This document shows, piece by piece, positions 2,258 to 21,660 of a DNA stretch of 21,660 nucleotides. The first letter of the stretch is position 1. Each line of letters opens with the position of its first letter. A model generated the notes under the pieces. The model was given only the letters and a program-made list of their open reading frames with translations. It was not told the DNA's origin and did no database searches. Origin of the DNA: Hepatocystis sp. ex Piliocolobus tephrosceles (lineage: Eukaryota > Apicomplexa > Aconoidasida > Haemosporida > Plasmodiidae); assembly GCA_902459845.2 (NCBI GenBank), contig CABPSV020000236.1, positions 1 to 21,660 on the forward strand, given 5' to 3'. Made by a program: the position numbers and the translations under genes.

Positions 2258-2290
2258 AACGATTGGTAAAAATAATTGAAACTATATAAA

Positions 2291-5200
2291 ATGAAATATG
2301 ATAAAACACGCTGGAGTAATGATAGGGGAAAAAAACAGAATAATCAAGACATAAACCAGGAGAATTATAACGGCAATAACAACAACAATAACAACGATAA
2401 TGATAGAAACAACAATACAATGACTAGTATTAACAATCATTTTGAAGGAGAGTATAACAATCTACAATACACACAAACTTCTAATAATAAGATGCAAACA
2501 AATAAGTCATATAATGGTAGAAAACCTTATACAAATAGATCATATAGTAATAAACGATACGTTAATAAATCATATGTATACAAGCCATCTAGTAATAAAC
2601 TATATAGGAATAGTAAGTCAAATAGTATACCATTCGAAATGGATTCATCTGAATACCCTTTGAATAATACAATAACAAAAATAAATAATATTTATAAAAA
2701 TAAACAAAAAGGAGAAAATATAATTAATAAAAGTGATAACTACAATTCATCATCACCATCATCATATATAAAAAACAGAGCATCAAATGAAAATGAAAAA
2801 AATAAATTAAATAATATAAAAAATAATAATCAACCACGTTACCACAAAAAATATATAAGAAAAACTTCTACAGATAATTTAGTTAATTTTAATTCTGACC
2901 ATAGGAATTATAGGCCTACAAATAATAATACTACTACTAATAATAATTATAATAATAATATGGATGGATTTGACGAAGGACATTATAAAGATGTCAAGTA
3001 TCATAGTGGTGACGAGTACTATAACTGTAAAGATAATAATTTGGATAATAACAAATTTCATAACAGTGAAAATGGATATAATAACAAATTTCATAACAGT
3101 GAAAATGGATATAATGAACATTACAGTAATTATAATAGTGGACGATACGATGATCGACATTGGGATGATGGATATAGGGATGGTGAAAGACACCATGATG
3201 ATAGACACCATGATGATAGACATCATGATGATAGACATCATGATGATAGATATAGGGACGATAGATATAGGGACGATAAATATGGGGACGATAGATATGG
3301 GGACGATAGATACCATGATGGTGAATATCATGATGATGGATATCGTAATAATGATTGTAGTGGAAAGTATAATAATGAGCATAGTGGAAAGTATAATAAT
3401 GAGCATAGTGGAAAGTATAATAATGAGCATAGTGGAAAGTATAATAACAAGTTTATAAGTAAACATAATAGTAAATACACAAGTAGATACCATACTGAAT
3501 ATACTAATAAATATCGTAATGAATATAATGATAAATATCGAGATGAGTACAATGATAAACGTAATAGTAGTATTACGTACCAACGTAATGAAGAAATAAA
3601 ATTTCAACTTAATAAAATAAATGATTTACATAGTTCCTTATTTAATGGTTCAAAATTAAATGAAAATAATTATAGTAAAAATACATCTGATGACACGTAT
3701 TATATGAATAATAATAACAATAATAGTAATAGCGGTAATATAAGTATGGGTATTATCGATAGTGGAAATAATAATAATAATAATAATAATATTAATAATA
3801 TTAATAATAATAATATTAATAATAATATTAATAATAATATTAATAATAATATTAATAATAATAATAATATTAATAATAATAATATTAATAATAATAATAA
3901 TATTAATAATAATAATAATAATATTAATAATAATAATATTATAAAGAACGTACAAAATGATGAAACAATTAAAACAGGTAATAATAGTTGTGACAATAAT
4001 AGTGGTATATCAATAAAAAAAGATACTATTAAAGATAGTATACTAAGTAAACTATCTCTACTTAGAAATATACCTTTTAATGTAAAAAACGATGATAATA
4101 ATGACAAATGTAAAACTGATAATAATAGTGGAACTGTTGATTATAAAAATGAACAAGAAATAAGTAAATTAGAAAAACATACAATGATAATTAATGATTT
4201 AAGAAAATGTTTAATTAAAAACAATGATTCCAATTTGGATTTATCTAATAAAGAACATGAAACAAATAACATTAATAATTCAAATATGAATAATACTACT
4301 AAAGGTATAAATATCAATTCTATCGATAATGGTAATGCAAAAATAGTTAGTGATAACATACACTTAGAACCCAATTTTTATAATGATTATATACAACCGT
4401 TTATGGATACAAACATTAATAATAACAATATAAACATTAGTAATAACAATATAAACATTAGTAATAATAATATAAACATTAGTAATAACAATATAAACAT
4501 TAGTAATAACAATACAAACATTAGTAATAACAATACAAACATATTAATAAACAATCGAATGAATTCTTATAATGTTGATAATATTGAGTATGTTAATAAT
4601 AATGAGGAAATGTATATGGATTATACAAATGGTAGATTTTTAGAAAATAAAAACAATTTATATAATAAACAAATGAATCGTACGGACTGTATGAGTTGTT
4701 TTGATGTAAATAGCATGTTGCCACAAGAATCGTCTGTATCTTCTGTACTATTTAATGAAAATAATAGTGGTACTATTACTAGTTGCTACAAATCGAATGA
4801 ACTACAAAGATTAAACAAAATGTATGATATAAAAAATAATAACGTAACTTATAATAACAAACCTAATGCAAGTGGAAACAATTTTTTCCCAGAGGTACAA
4901 ATTAAAGAATCTTTAAAAGTATTAAATACATTACAAGTAGATATAGAAAAAGTATGTTGTTATATAAAACATTTTATAGAACCACCTGAGCAATTATTTG
5001 AAATAATGACAACTGTATTTTTAGATAGTACAGTATTAACAACTTCAAAAACAGCTATATTTTATGTATATAATCATTTGATACAAGAACTTAGAAATAC
5101 ATATAAAAATGACATGCAAAGATATCATAATATTGCTGAAAAAGGCTTACAGTTATTTGTTATTCCTATACTACGGTATATATTAATAGAAGGAACAAAT

Positions 5201-5674
5201 ACTGATATTATTAATAAATTTTTTAGATGTATAGATATATGGAATGATCGAAATATATATGGTAAAACAGTATGTGATCAATTAAAAAGTATGCAAAAAA
5301 ATCCACATAAAAAAATTGATTTAATATTAAAAGCTACACCTTACCAAGCACATAGTTTATTATCTAATGAACTTTCCAAATTCACATCCTTAAATTTTAT
5401 TTTAAAAATGCCTAGTATTAATAATGCTCATAAAAAAGCATTAGAAAATAAAATACTAAAAACTTTATTTAATAATATTTGTAAAGATAAATTAAAAGAT
5501 TTTAATTATGAAGAGATACAAGAAGCATCGAAAATTTCAGATAAAGTTATGCGTATGTTTGGACAAGAATTAATACTTCTAAATTCACAAATACTTGAAC
5601 TATCATCATTAATAAATGATAATAATGACCATTTATTAGAATTACAAAAAGAATTGAGCAACTTCAAAGAATAG
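2291..5674 (+). CDS. Asn-rich protein with C-terminal CID/RPR-like domain and coiled coil
   Basis: Single-exon gene of 1127 residues. The ATG at 2291 is chosen because it is the first ATG in the frame; an in-frame TTG lies 15 nt before it. Residues 1-860 are mostly low complexity. They include a Tyr/Asp/Arg/His block with DRHHDD units (about 283-352), four 8-residue SGKYNNEH units (about 357-388), an Ile-punctuated Asn tract (about 491-555) and a 7-residue Ile/Asn repeat (about 708-752). Residues about 871-1000 look like a CTD-interacting domain: a helical segment TAIFYVYNHLIQ (921-932) matches the family's LLYLANDVIQ-type helix, and IWNDRNIYGKTVCDQLK (983-999) matches the IWEERSVY...QLK-type final helix. 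Residues about 1082-1127 form a probable coiled coil. CID proteins such as Rtt103, Pcf11 and RPRD1 bind phosphorylated RNA polymerase II C-terminal repeats in the nucleus during termination or splicing-coupled transcription. That role is inferred here. The RPRD1/Rtt103 order (CID then coiled coil) fits, but the long N-terminal extension is unusual. Confidence 0.85.
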   Translation: MKYDKTRWSNDRGKKQNNQDINQENYNGNNNNNNNDNDRNNNTMTSINNHFEGEYNNLQYTQTSNNKMQTNKSYNGRKPYTNRSYSNKRYVNKSYVYKPSSNKLYRNSKSNSIPFEMDSSEYPLNNTITKINNIYKNKQKGENIINKSDNYNSSSPSSYIKNRASNENEKNKLNNIKNNNQPRYHKKYIRKTSTDNLVNFNSDHRNYRPTNNNTTTNNNYNNNMDGFDEGHYKDVKYHSGDEYYNCKDNNLDNNKFHNSENGYNNKFHNSENGYNEHYSNYNSGRYDDRHWDDGYRDGERHHDDRHHDDRHHDDRHHDDRYRDDRYRDDKYGDDRYGDDRYHDGEYHDDGYRNNDCSGKYNNEHSGKYNNEHSGKYNNEHSGKYNNKFISKHNSKYTSRYHTEYTNKYRNEYNDKYRDEYNDKRNSSITYQRNEEIKFQLNKINDLHSSLFNGSKLNENNYSKNTSDDTYYMNNNNNNSNSGNISMGIIDSGNNNNNNNNINNINNNNINNNINNNINNNINNNNNINNNNINNNNNINNNNNNINNNNIIKNVQNDETIKTGNNSCDNNSGISIKKDTIKDSILSKLSLLRNIPFNVKNDDNNDKCKTDNNSGTVDYKNEQEISKLEKHTMIINDLRKCLIKNNDSNLDLSNKEHETNNINNSNMNNTTKGININSIDNGNAKIVSDNIHLEPNFYNDYIQPFMDTNINNNNINISNNNINISNNNINISNNNINISNNNTNISNNNTNILINNRMNSYNVDNIEYVNNNEEMYMDYTNGRFLENKNNLYNKQMNRTDCMSCFDVNSMLPQESSVSSVLFNENNSGTITSCYKSNELQRLNKMYDIKNNNVTYNNKPNASGNNFFPEVQIKESLKVLNTLQVDIEKVCCYIKHFIEPPEQLFEIMTTVFLDSTVLTTSKTAIFYVYNHLIQELRNTYKNDMQRYHNIAEKGLQLFVIPILRYILIEGTNTDIINKFFRCIDIWNDRNIYGKTVCDQLKSMQKNPHKKIDLILKATPYQAHSLLSNELSKFTSLNFILKMPSINNAHKKALENKILKTLFNNICKDKLKDFNYEEIQEASKISDKVMRMFGQELILLNSQILELSSLINDNNDHLLELQKELSNFKE
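3139..3440 (+). repeat. In-frame coding repeats: DRHHDD-type and SGKYNNEH
   Basis: A 15-18-bp family encoding DRHHDD, DRYRDD and DRYGDD units is followed by a 24-bp array (agtggaaagtataataatga plus gcat) repeated four times. A 33-bp duplication encoding a K-F-H-N-S-E-N-G-Y-N-N-type unit precedes them at about 3050-3115. All periods keep the frame, which supports translation. Confidence 0.85.
3762..3946 (+). repeat. Asn tract punctuated by Ile
   Basis: AAT codons interrupted by ATT every 3-6 residues (about residues 491-555). The antisense and shifted frames are also open here, which is a by-product of the AAT repeat. Confidence 0.9.
4412..4545 (+). repeat. 21-bp in-frame repeat (7-residue unit INISNNN)
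   Basis: About six copies of a 21-bp unit encoding INISNNN, the last ones changed to TNISNNN. A seven-residue Ile/Asn period could support beta-rich or heptad-like assembly; only the repeat itself is seen. Confidence 0.9.
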
Positions 5675-5994: not shown

Positions 5995-6275
5995 CTTTTT
6001 GGTTATATTCCCTTTCTGCCCATATTCCCTTTTTGGTTATATTCCCTTTTTGTTTATATTCCCTTTTTGTTTATATTCCCTTTTTGTTTATATTCCCTTT
6101 TTGTTTATATTCCCTTTTTGGTTATATTCCCTTTTTGGTTATATTCCCTTTTTGGTTATATTCCCTTTTTGGTTATATTCCCTTTTTGGTTATATTCCCT
6201 TTTTGGTTATATTCCCTTTTTGCCAATATTCCCTTTCTGCCTATATTCCCTTTTTGGGTATATTCCCTTTATGCG
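5995..6275. repeat. 17-bp minisatellite, about 16 copies
   Basis: Unit ttccctttttggttata with strict 17-bp spacing of the TTCCC core (6008, 6025, 6042 ... 6263, sixteen cores). Variants replace the centre with tgttta, ctgccca, tgccaa or ggg. The strand asymmetry is strong: pyrimidine-rich on +, purine-rich on -. The unit has no stop in any + frame. Confidence 0.95.
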
Positions 6276-6896: not shown

Positions 6897-9800
6897 TTAC
6901 GAGGACGTCATTTGAATGTTTAACGATAGGGCTAATGATCTCTTCCAAAGCTCTCTTGTATAATCATCAAACATGACCATTTTAACTGTTTTTTCATTTT
7001 GCCTACTGTGCTTAATTTTATATTTTAGTGTTATTATACTTTCATTTTTGTTAACAAATTTAATCTTACTTAAAAATTCATTATTATATTTATGTTTAAT
7101 TTTTAAAAAATAATTATTTGCATATAGGTACCTTTTTTTTGCATTTATTTGTTTCACTGTTTGTATATTTTGTTCTTTTAAAAGTGCGTCCAGTTCGTAA
7201 CCACATTTTTGTTTGGTTGAATTAGCATCGTTACGTTCGTCATTTCTATTATGTCCGTCACGTGCATCCCACTCGTCACTCCCGTCCCATTCTTCTCTCT
7301 TAGAACTTCTCTCCGTTATCATATCTGTTGATAAAACAAAATTTTCATTCGTATATTCTGTGTTACTACCCGAATACATATGTCGGATGGTATTTTGAAG
7401 AGCATGCTTCCTAGCAAATAACACATTTTGGTCATCTACAACATGATTAACTACACCTAAAAAGTTATTTAAATATATTGGATAGTTTGTGAATACGTTT
7501 TTATTTGACTTATTATCCATTCCCACCACTACTCCATCGCTACTACATGTATCCGACTCAATAAATAAGTTTATATCATTTTTTTCTTCATCGATAAATG
7601 GATTTAAAAATATCCAATGCATATAATTTATTTTAAAAATATATAAATGATTTTTTGTTAATACAAAAAATACTAATATTCGTATAATTTTATTATTATT
7701 TGTATTTCTTCTAAAAATATCATAATTTTTACTATCAGTCCCATCATCTGATTCGGTACTAGTTGATGTCTTATTTGATGCATTCCCATTGTCACTATTA
7801 TCCGATGATAAAATAAATTTATTGCCACTATATTCATCTGATAAATCTGTTTCAGATTTATCTGAATATTCATATTTTTTTATATTATTATCTTCTTTTT
7901 TGTTTTTTCGATTTTGTCTTTTTTTACGCTTTCTTTTAGCCTCTAATTCTGATTGTTTAATTTCTTTATAACCAAAAGAAGTGATAATAATATTATTAAC
8001 GTTCATAAAATTTTTTAAATTATTTATAAAAATATTATCCTGAATTAAATCCACCCTTGTTTCATGATCTGATCCTGATAAAAAATGAGCATATCCTACT
8101 ATCTCATCACGTAAATATTTATTTAAACTAATAAACATGTCAAATGATTCATACATAACATCATGTTCATAACTTATATGACCAAATACAAAAAAATTAT
8201 CATTCACTTTACTCATACATATTCTTGTTATATCTATGTATTTTTTACTATTAAAAATAATTAACTTTAATCCTTTTTGTTCGGTTATGTTTTCTTCGAA
8301 ATCGTCTGGGATATACAGTAAGTAGTATTGATCTTGTCCCAGTGCGATAAAATACCATTCGATGGCTGTAAGAAAAAAAAAAAAAAAAAGAAGCAAATTT
8401 TGTAAAAAAAACAGATTTTATAAAAAAAGGTAAATTTTATAAAAACATGCAAATTTTATAAAAACAAACAAATTTTATAAAAAAAGGCAAATTTATGAAA
8501 AAAAAAAACACACACACACACACACACACACGCACTGACAATAAACACCGCATAATGCCTTTTTTCGTTACCATTGTTCCTTATGTATATAACAGGAGAA
8601 ATGTGAAAAATCTGCGTTGGACGTCTATTTTGAACCGAAAGCTGATTTTGAAAAAGTATGCGCAAGTAAATCAAATCATGATAAAAAAACAAAGCATAAA
8701 TAAGTGATTTTCTGAATAATACATTATGTATGTATTTTTTATAATTAATAAAATATATTATAAAATATTTAAGTTTAGTTGAAAAGCACATTAAGTAAGA
8801 CAATGTAACTAATGTGTAAAAAAATATAGTATGTATATAATTAAAAGAACTTTTGTGGTAAATATAAGCTGCATACACTGACCCATGATGTACTGTATTT
8901 ATATAAATAAATAAATAGCACAATAATAAAATATTATTTTTATAAAAAAAATGGAATAAGGAACAGTCGACACTCCATTTTTGTATTTCTTTATAGTGAG
9001 AAAATTGGATATATGTAATTTTTTGTATAAAAAAATAAAATAATTGACATACTTCTGTAAAAAAATACTGATCTTCTTTCAAAATGTTATATTCACTTGT
9101 TATCATTTTTTTTATAAATTCTTTTGACAATAGTTTACAATAATAAAAAAATATATTATAAAAAATTAGCATATCCATTGACTCGACAGATTTTATATTT
9201 ATTTTCATAATTTGACTGTATATAAGAAAAAACGATGCATATACATTACAATCATAAAAACTACATTGATTTAATACATTTATTATTGTCTTCAATACAT
9301 CTGTTTTTAAAAAAAAGGTTTTTATTGTTGTATAAATATCATTATTTATATTATTAATTAGTATACTATAAAAAATCCTTAAATAGGTGTATAATATATA
9401 TGCTTCATTAATTTCGCCTTTACTACTGTTAATGAAGATACCTTTTTTATGGAATAGTAATATATGTAAATTACTACATTTTTGTTCATATATTTTCTCT
9501 TTATTAAAATTTAATAATTCAGTTGAAACACGGTTTAACACGCTATAGTTTGGATCTTCACACGATACATTACTACTAATGCTACTGCTGATGGTGCTAC
9601 TACTGGTGGTACCACTACTGATGGTACCACTGTTGATGGTGCTATTGTTGTTGGTCTTACCACTTCCACTATTAAACACCGGGTAATGTATTCCATCTTT
9701 GTCATAATTTGACAAATTAACATTCTCATTTTTAATATTCTTACGAATCTCGTTATTACCACTACCATTACCACTACTACTACCATTATCAACAGTATCA

Positions 9801-12800
9801 ACCTTTTCAGCGACATAATTTTTTAAAATCATGTTTTTTGATGATAACTCTTTTTCCTCTTTTTGTAACGAATGTACTTGAACCTGTTCATCCATACTAA
9901 CACCCTTTGTATCAACCATTTCAGCATTATTATTTATATTTTTTTTAATACTATCATGTCCGTTTTGAAATTGCAATAGGTTATCTAACAATCCAGAAGC
10001 ATCATTTTTTGTTAAATCTTCCTTATTAGTATAACTTTTTATATTTTCATATTTTTTTTTTTTTTTTTCTTTTTTTTTTTTCTTTATAACTTTTTTAGTA
10101 AACCCAAATATATCCTCAATATTACACTCTATCTCATCTTCAACCAATGAAATATCAAATGTGTATTTAAAATTATTGTTATATAATAGTAAAAATAATT
10201 TTTCTTTTTTTTTATGAATATATTCAAGATCTCCTTGTAATTTTTTAATGACTCGTACACGAGTACTAGAGTAAGTAGTTTTGCTAATAGGCTCAACTGC
10301 TCCATTAACAACAACATCCTGTTTAACTATTTTGTCAAGTTTGTTTTTTATGTCTTTTTCTTTTCTTTTTAAGTTTTTAATTTTTTTTTCCAATTTCAGT
10401 ATGTAATATTTTAACACTCCTGGGAAATATTCTTCTTGTTGCTCTTTTTTTAAATCACTAAAAATATCTGTTTCGATAAAAGTACCAACAAGGTTAAACA
10501 AATACATAATATATTTGTTTAAAAAATTAAACAACTGTTTTTTATAATCATTTTTATCATCATTATTCATTAAAAAAAAATAATTACAAATTTTTCTTTT
10601 ATCCCAATGTATATTTTCAAGATCACATAAATCTAAAATGTTCATATTTAAACCAGTTTTAAATGAATAAAAATAACCACTAAATATATCAGCTAAAGCA
10701 ATTAAAAGACGAAAACATACTTTTTTATTTTTAGTTATTTTTTTTTGCATTACAGTTTTAAATATATTATCTATATCAGCACACCAAGTCCTTTCAATTA
10801 AAATGTCATAATCAATATTTAACTCGCTATATAATTCATTTTCATTTGATAATATATTTGTAAAATAATAAGCTACTAAATCGTTTCGCATATATTTACG
10901 TAAATCAATATTTCTTGAGCATATAATTAATAGTTTTAAACATATCTTATTTAGGTCTATATCTTTCTCATCATCTTCTTTAACAAAATGTTCTACTTCT
11001 GAACTTTTTTCTACGTTCTTTTTTGTTTCTTTCTCATATTCACTTTTTGTTTTCTTTTCTATCAAATTTTTCTTTGATAAACAAAAATTATTTTCCTTAT
11101 ATAACATAAAATCTTGTAATAAAAACTGATTTGTAATACGCAATATACTTATAAGACTTTTTTCAAAGTCATAACATTCTAACACGTTATTTACATTTTC
11201 ATTTTTTATTACTTTTATATAAATCTGTATACAATAGTAATATATACTTTTCCATTTCTCATTTATAATAATATTTTTATCGTGTAAAATGTAAAATATT
11301 TTATGTAACTCTATGAAGTGATAATCTTCGAATGATATTAAATAAATGCATTTGAGTAGTTTGATAGTGATTTCTTCATTTTTTTTCTCTAACAAAAAAA
11401 AAAAAAAAATAAAATAAAATAAAAAATAAAAAAACGCACACATATGTGGGTGTTTGTTTGCATAAACAAATGCCCATTTTTACAAGTATGCAAGTATGTC
11501 CCTATACGAAAAAATACACACACATGTATATATATATATACAAGCTCTTAAAATGGTATTTTTTTTTTTTTTTTTTTTTGTTGAGTCTTTTTTTTCTTCC
11601 TTCTCTTCCAATGCAACTTACCTAAACAAATTAACAGATAATAATTTATGTCACTATTTTTAAACGCTTTTTTAACCTTAATTATATTGTTATCAATAAC
11701 CCTTTGAAAAAAAAAAGCAATAATATCCAGCGTATACTTTACGATTTCGAATAATTGTTCTTCAAAATTATTGTTATTATTAGTATCAGTAATATCATTG
11801 TTATTACCATCATCTTTATCATTGTTGTCATTATCACCAAACTGTTGAAGTATATTTTTATATTTTTGACCAAACAGAAAAGACAATAATATATTCAAAT
11901 TGTTTGTATTTTTTAAAATATATTCAATATTATTTTTGTACGTTTCTTCATTTTTTAAAATAACCAATAAACCACCTAAACAAGCACTTAATACATATGG
12001 GTTGTTATGTTCTGTTTTTATACCAGTTAATAATAAATCAATAAAATGGTGTGTGTTACATAACTCTAATAAAGTTTCTGTATTTGATTTACAAATACTA
12101 TTTAATGTTAATATAATTATATTACAATAAATAGCTTTTTTTTTATTTATATTCACTAAACCTTCCTCTATTATTTCTTTAACTTTTTTTATGTACAATT
12201 TTATATATAGTTTTTCTTTTATTAATGATTCACAATGTTTATTGTAATTTGTACATATATGTAAAACTATCAAATAAGTGTATTCAAGAAAAGGTGGCAT
12301 ATTATCGATGTTAGTCTCTTCGTGCTTTTTCATTTCTTTGGTTAAAATCTGAGTAGTAAAATGAAGAGGAAAAGGGGGAGGTTTACGATAATAAACGTTT
12401 GTGTGCGAAAAATAAAAGAGAGCAAAAAAATAAAATGCATTGCAAATAGAATGTAAAATATTGCACTAACAGTAGAATGTAAAATATTGCACTAACAGTA
12501 GAATGCAGAAATAATGCACTAACAGTATAATGCAAAAATAATGCACTAACAGTAGAATGCAAAAATAATGCACTAACAGTAGAATGCAGAAATATTGCAT
12601 TAACAGTAGAATGCAGAAATAATGCACGATACACATTATATGTTTACCTTTAGAAGTCCTTCGTCATATGCTATTACACAATTTTCTCTATTCAACACCA
12701 AAACAGATAAAAATTTAAAAATATATTCATTAAACGTTTTTTTTAATAATCTTATAACTTTATGTATACAACCATTAAAACTACCTGCAATAAAAGCATC

Positions 12801-13636
12801 TTTCGGTAAATGAACCAGTCCCTTGAAAATATTGTCCAACGTTTCGGTCTAAACAGACAGAAAAAAAAAAAAAAAAAAAAAAAAATGACGGAAAAAATAG
12901 GTGACAATGTGAAGTGTCAAGTGCACATGAAACGATTTAAATGTAAGAAACATGTTAAACGTATGGTAAAAATAAAATGATAAAACGTATGGTAAAAATA
13001 AAATGATAAAATGTATGGTAAAAATAAAATGATAAAACGTATGGTAAAAATAAAATGATAAAACGTATGGTAAAAATAAAATGATAAAACGTATGGTGAA
13101 AATAAAATGATAAAACGTATGGTGAAAATAAAATGATAAAACGTATTCGCACGCGAACATATATATATTCCTACTTCAGAAGAGTTAACAATCGCTTCAG
13201 TTACAATTTCCTCAAAAACCGTGTAAATGTCATACTTATATTCATCATTAGTTGATACTATATTACAAAGTATACGTAAAATTTGTGTATTTAAGTTGTA
13301 ACAATTTATATATATTAATTTTGTTATTGCATATAAAAAGGTATTTCTACTATCCTTATATTTTTCCAATACTATTAATATTCGATCTACTATATATTGT
13401 ATTTTTTTTTGTTTTTCATTTTGTTTTTCATTCTTTATAAAAAATATTTTTTTAAAATTCAATGGATTTTCAAAACATAACGTTGTTAACTCGTTTAGTA
13501 TATTTACGTACTTATCATGAGTGTTCTCATGTACTATTATACCTTCAATTAAATTTAAAATATTCTCACTATGACTAAATGTGTCATCTTTTTTTTCGTT
13601 CGCTAAACTTAAATTTTTTAAAATTTTTTTTATCAT
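6897..13636 (-). CDS. Conserved-type multi-exon protein, helical (ARM/HEAT-like) with possible C-terminal PH-like region
   Basis: Five exons on the minus strand: 13636-13175, 12848-12648, 12348-11622, 11388-8572 and 8365-6897. Every junction has GT donors and AG acceptors (GTAGGA/TTTAG, GTAAAC/CTCAG, GTAAGT/GTTAG, GTAACG/TACAG). Phases agree throughout and the sum, 5676 nt, is exactly 1892 codons including the stop, so the model is well supported. The protein has 1891 residues. Residues 1 to about 860 and about 1080-1400 are runs of amphipathic, Leu/Ile/Tyr-rich helices of armadillo/HEAT style (my inference). A Lys-rich stretch near 895 and a Ser/Thr/Gly/Asn-rich linker to about 1083 separate them. 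The last exon begins IEWYFIALGQDQYYLLYIP, has a basic NLS-like cluster KRKRKKRQNRKNKK near residue 1540, then FVLTKNHLYIFK, and ends with FDDYTRELWKRSLALSL, which looks like the closing strand and helix of a PH-type fold. I do not recognise the gene and propose no function; scaffold or trafficking roles are common for such architectures. Confidence 0.85.
8366..8571 (-). other. Intron 4 with 18-20-bp repeat and (CA)n
   Basis: 206 bp; donor GTAACG next to 8572, acceptor TTCTTACAG next to 8365, phase 1. It contains about six diverged copies of an aaattttataaaaa-type unit at 8395-8500 and a CA microsatellite at about 8507-8531. The intron frame stays partly open, so an unspliced reading is possible, but the exon phases fit splicing exactly. 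Confidence 0.85.
11389..11621 (-). other. Intron 3 with a small inverted repeat
   Basis: 233 bp; consensus donor GTAAGT next to 11622, acceptor TTTTTGTTAG next to 11388, phase 1 (one G carried over, restoring a Glu codon). Unlike the other three introns it has no evident minisatellite. It contains T- and TA-rich tracts and an inverted repeat at 11447-11476. Confidence 0.88.
12349..12647 (-). other. Intron 2, largely a 27-bp minisatellite
   Basis: 299 bp; donor GTAAAC next to 12648, acceptor TTTTACTACTCAG next to 12348, phase 0. About seven copies of a 27-bp unit, recognisable by actaacagtagaatgc followed by aaaaataatgc, fill 12440-12625. Single-base variants distinguish copies (aga/aaa, aatgt/aatgc, aatatt/aataatg). 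Confidence 0.88.
12849..13174 (-). other. Intron 1, with a 26-bp minisatellite
   Basis: 326 bp; donor GTAGGA next to 13175, acceptor TGTCTGTTTAG next to 12848, phase 0. About seven copies of a 26-bp unit (core acgtatggtaaaaataaaat) occupy 12955-13146. A 25-base poly(A) run (poly(T) on the minus strand) lies at 12861-12885, just upstream of the acceptor on the sense strand, and forms an extreme polypyrimidine tract. Because the unit lacks stops in some frames, exon 1 can read through into the array, giving a false 239-codon frame. Confidence 0.88.
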
Positions 13637-15745: not shown

Positions 15746-18700
15746 ATGATGAATAAAATAAAGTGCTATGGTCGTTTTTTACCTGAACCCCAATTAGACA
15801 CAAAAAGAGATGAAGAAAAATATTACTTAAGAAAAGAAAATATTTTTACAAATATATATACCGAAACAAACTCAAATTTGCAAATTTATAATGAAAATTT
15901 TCAAGAACGAATCAAATATATGTCAAATAGCACTAACGACTTATTTATCGTAATCAGTAATAATGACAAAGATGCAAAGATATTAACAATAGGAGATTGT
16001 AGTTCCTTTGGTATTATTTTGTACATAATAAATGACCTAGTTTTTAGTAATAATAAACATTGTAAAAGCGTGGTTAAATTTAGTCACTTTGAAATTAAAC
16101 AAAATAGAATTAACGATTTTTTATATAATTATAATTTAACAGAAAATAATATGATTGACGCAAATAACATTTTTACGTTACCACAGACAAGTGATAATAA
16201 TGTGATTACTACGGACAACCAGAATGATTTAAACATGAATACGTTTTATTTTGATATATTTAAGAATAAAAACAAAACAAATAAAACAAAAAAAAAACAA
16301 AAGGAGTTAGAAAGTTTGGGTGAGTATGATATGACTTCCTCTAATGCTATAAATAAAAGTAACAGCAATGGAAAGCACCAAAACATGTATAATGTAGACA
16401 AAAATATGGACACGTATTTATTACATAAAGATTTGTACAATTTTACCAAAAGCAAACTAAAGGATACATGCCCTGATATTATAAATAATAATATGTGTTT
16501 ATGGGATCCTAGCAAAATTAGAAAAATATATGTAAACCAAAAAAACATAGGAAACTTATTTAAATTATTACTTCACTGCGATAATGTGATAAAAAAAGCA
16601 GACAGTGGAAATTCAAGTGACGGTGTAAAGGATGATGCAACTGACGAAGTAACGTATGAAATATTCGAATTGGAAACACAAATTATGAAAGGATGTCATT
16701 ACATAGACTCAAATATAATAAATAAAACCATAACAATAATAACCGTTAATAATATAAAAAATGCTAAATCATTAGAAAATAATTATTTATATAAGTTTTT
16801 TGAATTTTTTTCAAATATAAAAGAATATTCTATATTTAATAATAATTTAAAATTTGTTTCGGAATATAAAGACAAAAAAGAAAATATTATTAAGTATTTA
16901 TATAGTTTATATAATAAAAATAACACACTTTTATCAGTTAAAAATAATACAAACATCATCCCATTCGAATTAAACTTTATGTACATATCTAATAATTTTC
17001 ATAAATATAAAACTATAAATAAATTTATTTATGCTTACATAAAATATATGAACAATTATGTTTATACATTAAAAATAAATAACGAAATAGATTATTCAGA
17101 TAGTGACTTTTTCAAAATAGATGAAAATATATATATATTAAACTGTTTATTAAATTATTACAGTAAATATAAAACAGAAAATGACAACTTCTATAGTAGG
17201 TATCTAGGATTGATAAAACTTACTATAAATTTACACTTATCCATAATCCAAGTAAATAAATGTTTAATACAGGATGTTGGTTGTATGTTTGGACAAAACA
17301 GAAGCAGTAACAGTAACAATGATAGTGATAGTAACAATCACACATGTAATAGAATAAATAACACCAAAAACATTAACAACATAATAAACTTGTACAATCA
17401 AACAAGAAGTACCAGTTCATATGTTCCTACAAACAGACTCACTTCGTACGAGTTCATACAAATAAACAAAATATGTAAACTTACAAAAGAAAAACAAAAA
17501 GTAAATAATAACAATAGTAATAGCAGCAAAAATAAAAGTAATAACAAATTAATGCAGGAACAAAACAAAACACTAGTAAAGACATATACAAGTTTAAAAG
17601 AAAAAAAAAAACAAAGTCATATAAAAGAAAAAAAAAACGACTACACAAGTGATGATAAACATAATAAGAATGACGACTATAGTAACAAAAAGCGTGGTAT
17701 AAATAAAAAAAATTATTTAAAATTAAACAAATATTTAACCAAATCATTTTTTAATATGTTACTAAATAATGAAAAGAATGACACGCAAAAAAAAAATTTT
17801 CATCCATTAAACATAGACAAAGACAACATAAAAAAAGAATCGGAAAAAAATAAAAATCATAATAGGAAAAAAAAAAAAAAATATGCGAAACGTAGCGAAC
17901 TAACGAAAAACACAAAAAGCGATGATACAAAAAAAAAAGAGTTTTCATTAGTAGCGAAAATTAAGATACGAAATCAAGAAAAAGAAATTCCAAATGTCCA
18001 CTTGTTTAATAATACATTATATAACAACACAGATCATAGTTTATGTGTTATTGATAACAGAAGGAACAAAAAAAAACAGTTTATACATGTTAAGACTGTT
18101 GGTACGAGTTACCCTAGTAACAATTTAACTTTAATATATTCGGATGAAAAGGATGATAGTAGTTTAAACAAATATATGAATAACATTAAAATAAATAAAA
18201 AAGTTTTAAATCACATTTCTACTTCATGCGAAGATATTAAAAAAGAACAAAAGCGAAATGAGAAAAAAGCTAAAAACTTATTTGAAGAAGTAGAAAAATG
18301 TTTAGACAGATTAAATAACGAAGGTATAAAAAATAGTACGTATAATGACAAAAATCGTAGTCAAATCGATCCAACTTTGTTAAAAGAAATTGAAAGATGT
18401 GAATATCAAAATATAACCATACAAAATGAAAAGTTAAAAAAGGGTCAAAAACAAGATAAAAAAAAAAAAATCAAGCTTGCAAAACAAACCGAGTCTGCAA
18501 AACAAATTCAAGAATTGAATGATAAGTTAATGTCGTTACAATGTAAAATAAATCAAAATGGTATTAATGAACAGATGATAGTAACTAAAGTTGTGACAAA
18601 AAATCAGCCTCTTTGTTTTGAAGGCGGCGTTATCAACAACAAAAATAACAACAACAACAATAACAATAACAACAACAACAATAACAACAACAACAATAAC

Positions 18701-21426
18701 AACAACAATAACAATAACAACAACAACAATAACAACAACAATAACAACAAGGAAAACAATACGCTCGTACGCAAAAGTATGAACAATGCAATTAAAATAA
18801 ATACACCCAAAACAGTACATAATAAAAAAACTTCTAATTCTTTATGTAATAATACAAAAGAAACCGATAATCATCAAACAGGTTTATGTTCTCCCTATTT
18901 CCCTAAAGTACATAACAGTAGCAGCAATATTACTAAGCCTAATCAAAAGAATGTAAATATACTGAATGCCACAAAGGACAAAACAAAGGACAAAACAAAG
19001 GACAAAACAAAGAACGAAACAAAATGTAATATGCAAGAGTATTCTAATAGCAATATGATTCAACAAGCGGTTTTATATCCGCACGAAAATAGTACAACTA
19101 GTAACACAAACAGAAAGTATAATATAAATAAGCATGTAAAACAGAAGGAAGAATATCATCAAAGTGAGTACCCTTTTGACGATAGTTTTACATATTACGA
19201 TACGTTAAAGAATACCCAACAAGAGCTAAAAAAAAAAAACAATAATAATAATAATAATAATAATAATAAGAGTAATAATTATTTTGCTTCTAACCAATAT
19301 AATAACAAGTATGTAATACCAATGTCAAACAGTTTATATAGCTATGACATCTCTAGTGATACTAATACCGAACCACAACAGTTTAACCAGCCACAACATT
19401 TTAATCAAAATATGTTTGGACTAAGTTCTACTGAAATGAAAACGAATACAAAAATGGAAAAATCAGTCAATAATATGGATACATATAATAAAAAATCTGG
19501 GGCAAATAATATTAAAAAAATATATTCTTATGCTAGTAATAACAACATAGATACAACTGATTATATTTATGTAGATACACCTATACCAATTAAAACAGAT
19601 AATAAGTATAAACTGGAAGGTTTAATTGATGATGCAGTAAAAGTCAATTCAAAATCTTATACTTCTTCATATAATTTAAATGATAGTACTTATTCTTTTT
19701 CATCTAAAAGCCAAAACGAATTAAATCAAAATAGTGACATTTTTACTACTAATAACATAAACGATGAAATGGAGAAACATTCTAAAATGAAAAATAAAAA
19801 TTGTTCTTTAGAATTATTAAAACTATATCAGATGTATGAAAATAGTAATAATATTTTAACTGTAAGGGGAAAACAAAAACAAACACAAACAAAATCAATA
19901 GATACAAATAATTCGAATGTAGTATGTGTGAATGTTAATGACAGTACCATTTCCAATGTAAATGCCAGTATCAGTACCAGTGTCAATGAAAGTATCAGTA
20001 CCAGTGTCAATGAAAGTACCAATGCCAATGTAAATGCCAATGCCAATGTAAATGCCAATGCCAATGTAAATGCCAATGCCAATGTAAATGCCAATGCCAA
20101 TGCCAATGCCAATGCCAATGTAAATGCCAATGCCAATGCCAATGCCAATGTAAATGCCAATGACAGTACCAATGCCAGTTTAAACAGTACTACCAGTATT
20201 AATTTACTTTCAACTAGTTTATATTCATCCACTAGTAACAATAATAAAAGTGATAGCAATTTTGATCCTAAATCAATCGATAATAGTATTATACAGTATC
20301 ATAAAAATATAAAAAATTTAATAAACAAACATATGATAATGTTGAAACAAAAAGATAAGGAAGATAAAAACGATTTGGTTATTTTAAATAATATAAAATA
20401 TGCTAAAGGTATACTAAATGAATATAATAAATTTTTAAATAAAGATTATAGTAAAAAAGCTGACCAATTTTTGTTACTACACGAAATTATGACAAATAAA
20501 TATGAACAAGAAAAAAAAGAAAAACACATCAATGACAATGACGATTATGTCGCTTATGATAATACTGCTAATGATAATACTGCTTATGATAATACTGCTT
20601 ATGATAATACTGCTTATGATAATACTGCTTATGATAATACTGCTAATGATAATACTGCTTATGATAATACTGCTTATGATAATACTGCTAATGATAATAC
20701 TGCTAATGATAATACTGTTAATGATAATACTGCTTATGATAATACTGCTTATGATAATACTGCTTATGGTACTAATACTTATAAAAAAATAGAACAACAG
20801 AAAAGTAACTACTCAACATTATCAAATAATACATTAAACAAAATTAATTATACTAATGATGGGGATTATAATAATGAAGACTATGAGAAAATAAAACAAC
20901 AGAAGTCATACTATACAACACAACCAACTAATACATTAAATAACAGTTATAATAAATATTATCCTTCAGAAAAAAATGAAAATTGTAAAGAGGTCACAGT
21001 CGACAGTAGTTATTATAAGCAGCATTCAAATGAAACAAAAAATAAAGATAAACAAGAAATATACAAATATAAAAGTAATGACCTAGAAAGGGTTACTGAG
21101 GAAACCAAAAAAAAGGAGAAACGTGTAAAAAAGAACAGCAAAAAGTATACATATATGGAGACAGACACATGTACAGATACAGACATCGATACATTCATAA
21201 ATAATGAACACGAAGAACTAATAAGTTATACGTTACCTAAAAATAACGACACAAACACAGGTACATACACAAACACAGGTACATACACAAACACAAGTAA
21301 ATACACAAACACAGGTACATACAAAAACACAGGTGCATACAAAAACACAGGTGCATACAAAAACACAGGTACATACACAAACACAGGTACATACAAAAAC
21401 ACAAGCGCTAGCACTTTATCTGGGCC

Positions 21427-21457
<31 letters not shown>

Positions 21458-21660
21458 CCCAAAACAAATGCATATTCATACATGCAACAAAAAGAAGTAA
21501 CCATGGAAGATGAAAGTAACGATAATAGCTTTGAAAAAGGAAATATTTTAAAACATATGTATCATACGTTAAACAATCAACATTTAAAAAAGATAAAAAA
21601 AAAATATAATAATAAACATAACGATTGTAATAAACAACAGCAAAAAGTATACATATATGG
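15746..21660 (+). CDS. Divergent kinesin-like protein, N-terminal degenerate motor domain, 3' end outside window
   Basis: Open from ATG 15746 (ATG ATG, so 15749 is also possible) to the window edge with no stop: 1971 codons plus 2 nt. The N-terminus follows the kinesin motor order. IKCYGRFLP (5-13) resembles the first strand, NxxVxCRxRP. A ~50-residue stretch 34-84 has the spacing of the F...VF...Q..VY...YGQTGSGKT.TM.G block. GIILYIINDLV (89-99) resembles GIIPR...LF. VVKFSHFEIKQNRINDFL (109-126) resembles the V.VS..EIYNE.I.DLL strand-helix. YEIFEL (304-309) resembles HSIFTL, INLHLSIIQVNKCL (494-507) resembles the NINKSL..LG helix, and VPTNRLTSYEFIQ (560-572) resembles VPYRDSKLT.LLQ. The P-loop equivalent (72-79, NNDKDAKI), switch I and switch II lack catalytic residues. 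Large Asn/Lys insertions expand the domain. After about 600 come low-complexity stretches, short coiled-coil segments (about 830-870 and 1513-1590) and in-frame repeats. Motor activity is unlikely; a microtubule-associated or structural role is inference. Confidence 0.8.
18632..18750 (+). repeat. Asn tract with AAC-rich codons
   Basis: About 36 Asn codons, alternating AAC and AAT, starting near residue 966 of the kinesin-like protein. The AAC preference differs from the AAT tract of the CID protein. Confidence 0.88.
18972..19015 (+). repeat. 12-bp in-frame repeat encoding KDKT
   Basis: Three full copies and one variant (KNET) of aaggacaaaaca. Confidence 0.85.
19920..20190 (+). repeat. 6/12/18-bp Asn-Ala/Val/Ser repeat
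   Basis: Hexamers aatgcc, aatgta, agtacc and agtatc alternate to encode NA, NV, ST and SI pairs, forming a long NANVNA array (about residues 1393-1482). The flanks (SISTSVNE units) look like older diverged copies. Confidence 0.88.
20558..20769 (+). repeat. 15-bp in-frame repeat encoding DNTAY/DNTAN, 14 copies
   Basis: Unit gataatactgcttat at exact 15-bp spacing from 20558 to the last full copy at 20753; variants change the last codon to AAT and one GCT to GTT. Confidence 0.93.
21254..21415 (+). repeat. 18-bp in-frame repeat encoding NTGTYT, 9 copies
   Basis: Unit aacacaggtacatacaca with variants giving NTSKYT, NTGTYK and NTGAYK; the last copy degenerates to NTSAS. A (AAT)n Asn run follows at about 21430-21455. 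Confidence 0.92.

Follow-up and report, generated by a model that had tools for sequence, protein, structure and literature searches.

The question raised by the DNA of Hepatocystis sp. ex Piliocolobus tephrosceles studied here is whether the long open reading frame (ORF) at its end begins with a kinesin motor head that has lost its nucleotide site. The window, by which we mean the whole stretch analysed, is the entire contig C223 (21,660 bases), one of the 611 contigs of a 12.4-Mb draft genome; because the contig ends at 21660, the ORF at 15746-21658 on the plus strand (1,971 codons, beginning MMNKIKCYGRFLP) runs off it while still open. Our answer, which we regard as probable, is that residues ~1-436 are a pseudo-kinesin, that is, a kinesin motor head without nucleotide binding, placed at the N-terminus of a giant scaffold and kept for docking. 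At the level of sequence, we have shown that in six species the N-terminal domain is conserved, kinesin-related and free of the three nucleotide motifs. The initial annotation of this locus had made the same basic observation, which is confirmed, and had read it as a pseudo-motor, an interpretation that is supported.

The six species are Hepatocystis and the sources of five orthologs (P0001-P0005) returned by a protein search with expectation values (E) of 4.9e-71 to 5.9e-60, namely Plasmodium gonderi, coatneyi, inui, fragile and knowlesi, whose hosts are monkeys; the full-length profile used as query returned the same five again. The orthologs are 2,871-3,212 amino acids (aa) long, and their annotations read hypothetical, uncharacterized or unknown function. 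Judged from these lengths, the ORF of the window represents about the N-terminal two thirds of a haemosporidian protein of ~3,000 residues. The window and the orthologs align from residue 1, with 35-39% identity between window and orthologs across the domain. The orthologs open MN[ST][VI]KCYGR, which favours the second Met, at 15749, as the start.

In these comparisons the kinship with kinesins is visible to pooled profiles and missed by single-family scans. When a profile of the six domains was compared with PDB sequences, 12 matches were obtained up to E 10, the best ten all being kinesins (kinesin-1 and yeast Kip3; E 0.0043-0.0079) that span profile positions 32-127 up to 32-151, and the other two being ribosomal protein uS2 (E 1.5 and 2.1). 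Comparison of residues 1-140 with a profile of 34 kinesin sequences by hhalign gave P 8.7e-5 (a single comparison), and the N-half of the domain scored 33.6 against the N-half of the kinesin profile, where the highest of 60 column shuffles scored 21.4 and the profile in reverse 10.8. A kinesin hidden Markov model (HMM) scored the six N-terminal parts at 15.1-20.9 bits (E 0.0014-0.079, database size 177,635); 1,800 shuffles were made, and the highest of the 1,549 that were scored stood at 8.8 bits. In the opposite direction, a profile of the N-terminal pieces matched 23/124 kinesin motors at E<=10 for the same database size (best E 0.013). Residues ~20-130 are, on this evidence, shown to be related to kinesins.

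It is within this kinesin-related segment that the P-loop should lie. In alignment A4, whose kinesin rows are six fragments, four of them from this genome, the octamer at the P-loop position of the window is SNNDKDAK, residues 71-78 (nucleotides 15956-15979), and those of the orthologs are NNEKKDAT, SNEKKDSA, NNEEKDGT, NNEKNDGT and NNDEKDAT; all six kinesin fragments keep the P-loop, as GQTGSGKT, GCTSAGKT or GATGSGKT. The initial annotation had put NNDKDAKI, residues 72-79, at this position; those letters stand there, and alignment with kinesins moves the octamer one residue towards the N-terminus. An alignment of 12 rows is free of gaps from beta3 to seven residues beyond the octamer, and between the end of the octamer and the Gly of alpha2 the window and four of the six kinesins have 10 residues, the other two kinesins 15 and the orthologs 11-12. 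This preserved spacing argues against a missed exon, and a missed exon carrying the P-loop was ruled out on that ground. None of the six sequences retains the Lys of GK[ST] (A, S, G, G, A, A in its place), and G-x4-GK[ST], which the orthologs might have been expected to keep had the window suffered a local sequence problem, occurs nowhere in the six proteins (1,971 aa of the window and the full length of the five orthologs); three orthologs have a bare GK[ST] at 272 and one has it at 544, both off the P-loop position. The switch I motif SS[RK]SH, already reported as absent, and the DLAG of switch II were found in none of the six domains (first 560 residues of each), and because the motifs are absent from that entire stretch their loss holds for any alignment of the C-half. 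TVNNIK, which the initial annotation read in place of DLAGSE, is present at 333-338 and, should the guided model described below be right, takes the position of switch II. At the P-loop position itself, Asn at octamer position 2 and Asp at position 6, where kinesins have the Gly before the Lys, are invariant in all six sequences; the loop therefore seems to be constrained in a new way, and the combination of invariant residues with the loss of those that bind ATP suggests that the dead P-loop has a new role.

Beyond residue ~130 the case for a complete head is less direct, and a number of results weigh against it. The C-half alone was no better than its shuffles (51/60 equalled or exceeded it), a C-half profile matched 0/124 kinesins at E<=100, and hhalign of the whole domain against the 124 kinesins aligned well only residues 30-129, with a probability of 34%; in global mode the whole-domain comparison was not significant (P 0.21). 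An AlphaFold2 model built from the six orthologous sequences without kinesin rows had a predicted local distance difference test score (pLDDT) of 31.5, too poor to use, and no kinesin was named in the best 50 Foldseek matches listed for it. When rows from kinesin N-halves were included in the alignment, Foldseek matched kinesin heads to the resulting model across the full span; this guided model was, however, primed by the kinesin fragments, with no control for priming, its pLDDT was 43.7 and its predicted template modelling score 0.45, and its whole-chain template modelling scores in Foldseek were moderate (0.31-0.57 by target, root-mean-square deviation 8.9-32). Folding of the rest of the head as kinesin beta5-alpha6 is thus supported by the model but not independently shown. 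The claim, made at the outset, that six kinesin landmarks follow in order stands statistically for the N-half, and for the C-half it failed in sequence tests and has its order from the guided model; likewise, the proposed kinesin fold is recovered with the kinesin rows and not without them.

These results leave room for a partial kinesin relative, in which the N-terminal ~130 residues are of kinesin descent and the C-half has been replaced or refolded, since sequence support ends at about residue 130 and the kinesin order of the C-half stems from a primed model. We nevertheless consider this unlikely. The unprimed model, for all its low confidence, also places helix, strand, strand and helices of the C-half in nearly the kinesin order; conservation is about equal in the elements of the two halves (C-half 33-82%, N-half 39-92%, window versus P0001/P0002); and an isolated kinesin N-half would, from what is known of the family, miss its partners in the central sheet.

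A second group of negative results bears on whether there is any homology at all. No Pfam family, PF00225 included, matched a single one of the six domains at E values up to 10, so that the profile comparison by which the initial annotation proposed to judge the assignment succeeds in that kinesins come first and fails for PF00225 itself. All five orthologs escaped an HMM of five kinesins from the same genome under default filters. A phmmer search of the PDB with residues 1-600 as a single sequence gave nothing up to E 1, and Pfam and NCBIfam scans of the ORF and some orthologs gave nothing relevant, the sole family matches in this protein family being Cornifin in the repeats of P0001 and a weak FlaF in P0002. 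Given the silence of single-sequence searches, the modest individual E-values and an unprimed model without a named kinesin among the matches listed, chance resemblance in a low-complexity protein rich in K, N and I has to be weighed, but we find it improbable: the ten best PDB matches are all kinesins, all six sequences, at 15-21 bits, lie above the shuffle maximum of 8.8, no gap interrupts the P-loop position, and the kinesin rows share the flanking R, G, E and D. Indeed, the Arg of beta1 is invariant in alignment A3 (17 rows), and the E and D of the beta4 region are invariant in every row of alignments A3 and A4.

Might the head still bind nucleotide in an unorthodox manner, without Walker A, switch I or switch II? 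The invariant Asn and Asp at P-loop columns 2 and 6 do indicate some constraint, yet with the Lys of GK[ST] missing throughout and DLAG, SS[RK]SH and G-x4-GK[ST] all absent we consider this very unlikely. A decaying pseudogene or a local sequence error of the assembly, for which one could cite a draft genome and a contig that ends inside the gene, is scarcely credible beside 1,971 open codons and conserved core elements, and is refuted by loss of the P-loop in five orthologs from other genomes. The protein was also considered as one of the PF00225-positive kinesins of this genome and rejected as such, as those lie on seven other contigs (C63, C107, C126, C130, C147, C235 and C325), C223 not being among them.

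We return, then, to a pseudo-kinesin head. From a core that is conserved without its nucleotide site we infer that the domain is kept for a surface; the head would serve for docking and not as an engine. Its most likely ligand would be either microtubules or tubulin, bound without the help of ATP, or else a partner protein such as a catalytic parasite kinesin, and the long tail would tether it to another structure. By analogy with known non-catalytic heads, nucleotide-independent binding of either kind is plausible. We judge putative binding to microtubules or tubulin to be possible, though somewhat short of an even chance, and putative binding to another protein, kinesins included, to be a little less likely than that. 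The loop 12 stretch has a net positive charge in all six sequences (+2 to +4), which favours a microtubule clamp. Loops 8 and 11, however, face the microtubule in kinesins and are among the most changed parts here, with a variable insert of ~110 residues at loop 8 and a seemingly shorter loop 11, which weakens the microtubule-binding reading. In P0002, 13 residues separate the switch II position from the alpha4-like LSHLCEL, against 24 between DLAGSE and NQSLLAL in the kinesin-8 of the Hepatocystis genome, so that, given our pairing of the two helices, loop 11 is apparently ~11 residues shorter.

Non-catalytic kinesin-like proteins are familiar elsewhere. KIF26, VAB-8 and Costal-2 are kinesin-like proteins described as having a degraded ATPase; in that description they resemble the present heads, which differ in not even being matched by the Pfam Kinesin model. 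Vik1 and the other known pseudo-kinesins were not named in the best 50 Foldseek matches listed for each guided-model search, which does not exclude them. The nearest parallel is with Vik1 and Cik1, the yeast partners of a kinesin-14, whose heads, in the accessible part of one account, are incapable of ATP binding and hydrolysis, contain a microtubule-binding site and give Kar3 a foothold (PMC4338441). Like them, the present domain is a kinesin head without the elements for ATP binding and hydrolysis, here conserved among orthologs. The Vik1 head, in contrast, is C-terminal (residues 351-647 comprise head plus neck) and pairs with Kar3, according to the same accessible text (PMC4338441), whereas that of the haemosporidian protein is N-terminal in ~3,000 residues. 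We compare the two by description only, as an analogy that implies no relatedness. The same holds for pseudoKinesin-21, an orphan, kinesin-related group in a superfamily tree that is unique to fungal taxa in the part of the source available (PMC5076506); the pseudo-kinesin label is common to both, and the likeness is one of description, not of sequence.

Within the parasites themselves, the accessible text of a survey of P. berghei lists nine kinesins (kinesin-4, -5, -8B, -8X, -13, -15, -20, -X3 and -X4, of which X3 and X4 are divergent), and its published counts give Plasmodium no kinesin-1, -2 or -3 (PMC9333250). The present protein belongs to the same parasite group as these nine and probably to the same fold family. 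Two 'divergent kinesins' of Toxoplasma, KinesinB and TGGT1_201230, are mentioned in the available text of another study, which does not state whether they are catalytic (PMC9436416), and the main text of a structure-based domain search of unknown proteins of P. falciparum contains neither 'kinesin' nor 'motor' (PMC11079077). The accessible, openly licensed literature yielded no description of a non-catalytic kinesin from either Plasmodium or Toxoplasma. If our reading is true, the non-catalytic head adds a kinesin-type member beyond the published nine, one that is invisible to PF00225, and prompts one to ask if any kinesin of the parasite functions by pairing with a silent partner. A bolder reading, possible but less likely than not, is a tenth, unlisted haemosporidian kinesin-type protein, a giant scaffold whose head either clamps microtubules without ATP or pairs as the silent member with one of the nine catalytic kinesins as a heterodimer, which would be the first arrangement of the Vik1/Cik1 type in this group.

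Table 1. Features of the ORF in window coordinates; percentages are identities of the window with P0001 and P0002 unless stated otherwise.
Feature	Residues	Position	Strand	Basis or conservation
Kinesin-like head, beta1 to alpha6, extreme N-terminus	~2-436	15749..17053	+	N-half by profile; full span by guided AlphaFold2 model only
Beta1-like IKCYGRFLP, aligned to kinesin [I/V]xVxxRxRP	5-13	15758..15784	+	
Beta3 and P-loop position, DLFIVISNNDKDAKILTIG	65-83	15938..15994	+	Ungapped against six kinesin fragments
Alpha2-like FGIILYIINDL; kinesin GI(x6)DLF	88-98	16007..16039	+	Gly invariant in all rows of alignments A3 and A4
Beta4 and beyond, ...FSHFEIKQNRINDFL; kinesin SYLEIYNExIRDLL	108-128	16067..16129	+	Profile alignment to kinesin-1
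Poorly conserved insert at kinesin beta5/loop 8 region	141-250	16166..16495	+	16%
Beta5/alpha3-like WDPSKIRKIYVNQKNIGNLFKLL	251-277	16496..16576	+	Helix at equivalent position in guided model; 46-50%
Beta6-like EVTYEIFELETQIM; SSRSH of switch I absent before it	301-314	16646..16687	+	Strand in guided and unguided models
Beta7-like TITIITV, then NNIKNA at switch II position (DLAGSE in kinesins)	324-340	16715..16765	+	Strand in both models
Alpha5-like ENIIKYLYSLYNK	379-391	16880..16918	+	75%; P0001 versus P0002 83%; helix in both models
Beta8 IPFELNFMYIS and alpha6	405-436	16958..17053	+	Beta8 82%, alpha6 48-52%
Conserved helix past head, SDFFKIDENIYILNCLLNYYSKY	453-475	17102..17170	+	57-70% (P0002/P0001); helix in both models
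Long low-complexity tail, Asn/Lys-rich, past contig end		17246..21658	+	

The positions of the elements are given in Table 1. Residues 2-13 of the window are 83-92% identical to P0002/P0001. Against P0001/P0002, identity is 47-92% for beta1, beta3, alpha2, beta4, alpha5, beta8 and the helix past the head, and lower for alpha1 (39-42%), alpha3 (46-50%), beta6 (36-43%), beta7 (54%), loop 11/alpha4 (33-50%) and alpha6 (48-52%); the remaining loops of the C-half show 0-36%. At beta8/alpha6 the guided model has a strand and then a helix, and the unguided model puts a helix at the beta8 position.

The very long low-complexity tail described by the initial annotation is also borne out. It carries tandem repeats at 18634-18750, 20001-20177, 20552-20768 and 21249-21403, and past about residue 540 of P0002 the identity of the window falls to 4-38% per 60-residue bin (bins where computable); the conserved tail segments in the ortholog alignment have a helical look on visual inspection alone. 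Conservation in the protein as a whole peaks close to the C-terminus, in a block (P0002 residues ~2281-2400) where P. gonderi and P. coatneyi are 78-85% identical in 60-residue bins, compared with 63-65% over residues 1-120. This block of P0002 has no clear PDB match (best E 0.11). The block lies past the end of the window's contig, and a search of the rest of the assembly did not find it, the empty answer of that search being uninformative.

Two protein searches returned no ortholog for P. falciparum, vivax, malariae, ovale or cynomolgi, or for the rodent parasites P. chabaudi and P. vinckei, the first scoring only candidates that share most words with the query and the second being limited to ~1,579-5,024 aa (0.55-1.75x the query). 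The kinesin-8 of all seven species is present in the same database, and P. vivax is close to species that have the ortholog. Split or differently sized gene models, the limits of the searches or a patchy distribution may account for the missing orthologs, and we draw no conclusion on presence or absence.

The kinesin-8 of the Hepatocystis genome (L001) provided a separate observation. A UniRef entry assigned to the red colobus Piliocolobus tephrosceles (P0018) matches it with 98% identity over 68% of the query and with 77% over a longer stretch of 717 residues; against 11 named Plasmodium entries it is 84-88% identical over 98-99% of the query. On this evidence the genome is probably that of Hepatocystis or a near relative, and of a different isolate from the one behind P0018. 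Because the identity of 98% is to a parasite kinesin-8 over part of the motor, P0018 is very probably a Hepatocystis protein misfiled under its monkey host. The accessible text of a published account states that the red colobus assembly contained Hepatocystis contigs and gives the parasite a guanine plus cytosine (GC) content of 22.05% (PMC7425995); the GC content of the window is 18.8-26.8% in 1-kb bins. The initial annotation had spoken of malaria parasites, which we would reword as haemosporidian, the closest protein in the one gene compared being probably from Hepatocystis.

Elsewhere in the window, an Asn-rich ORF of 1,132 aa at 2276-5674 on the plus strand, whose non-repetitive C-terminal ~230 residues look all-helical by eye, had no Pfam, NCBIfam or significant PDB match. 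On the minus strand, four adjacent ORFs at 6897-13636 (499, 995, 261 and 239 aa) look like one multi-exon gene, and their only family match was ARMC9_ARM, below threshold, in the last ORF (E 0.59). Long tandem arrays with units of 10-30 bases lie at 1303-1842, 5995-6270, 12447-12627 and 12957-13146; that at 5995-6270, with 16 copies of a 17-base unit, is open in all three plus-strand frames, and that at 12957-13146 lies inside a minus-strand ORF.
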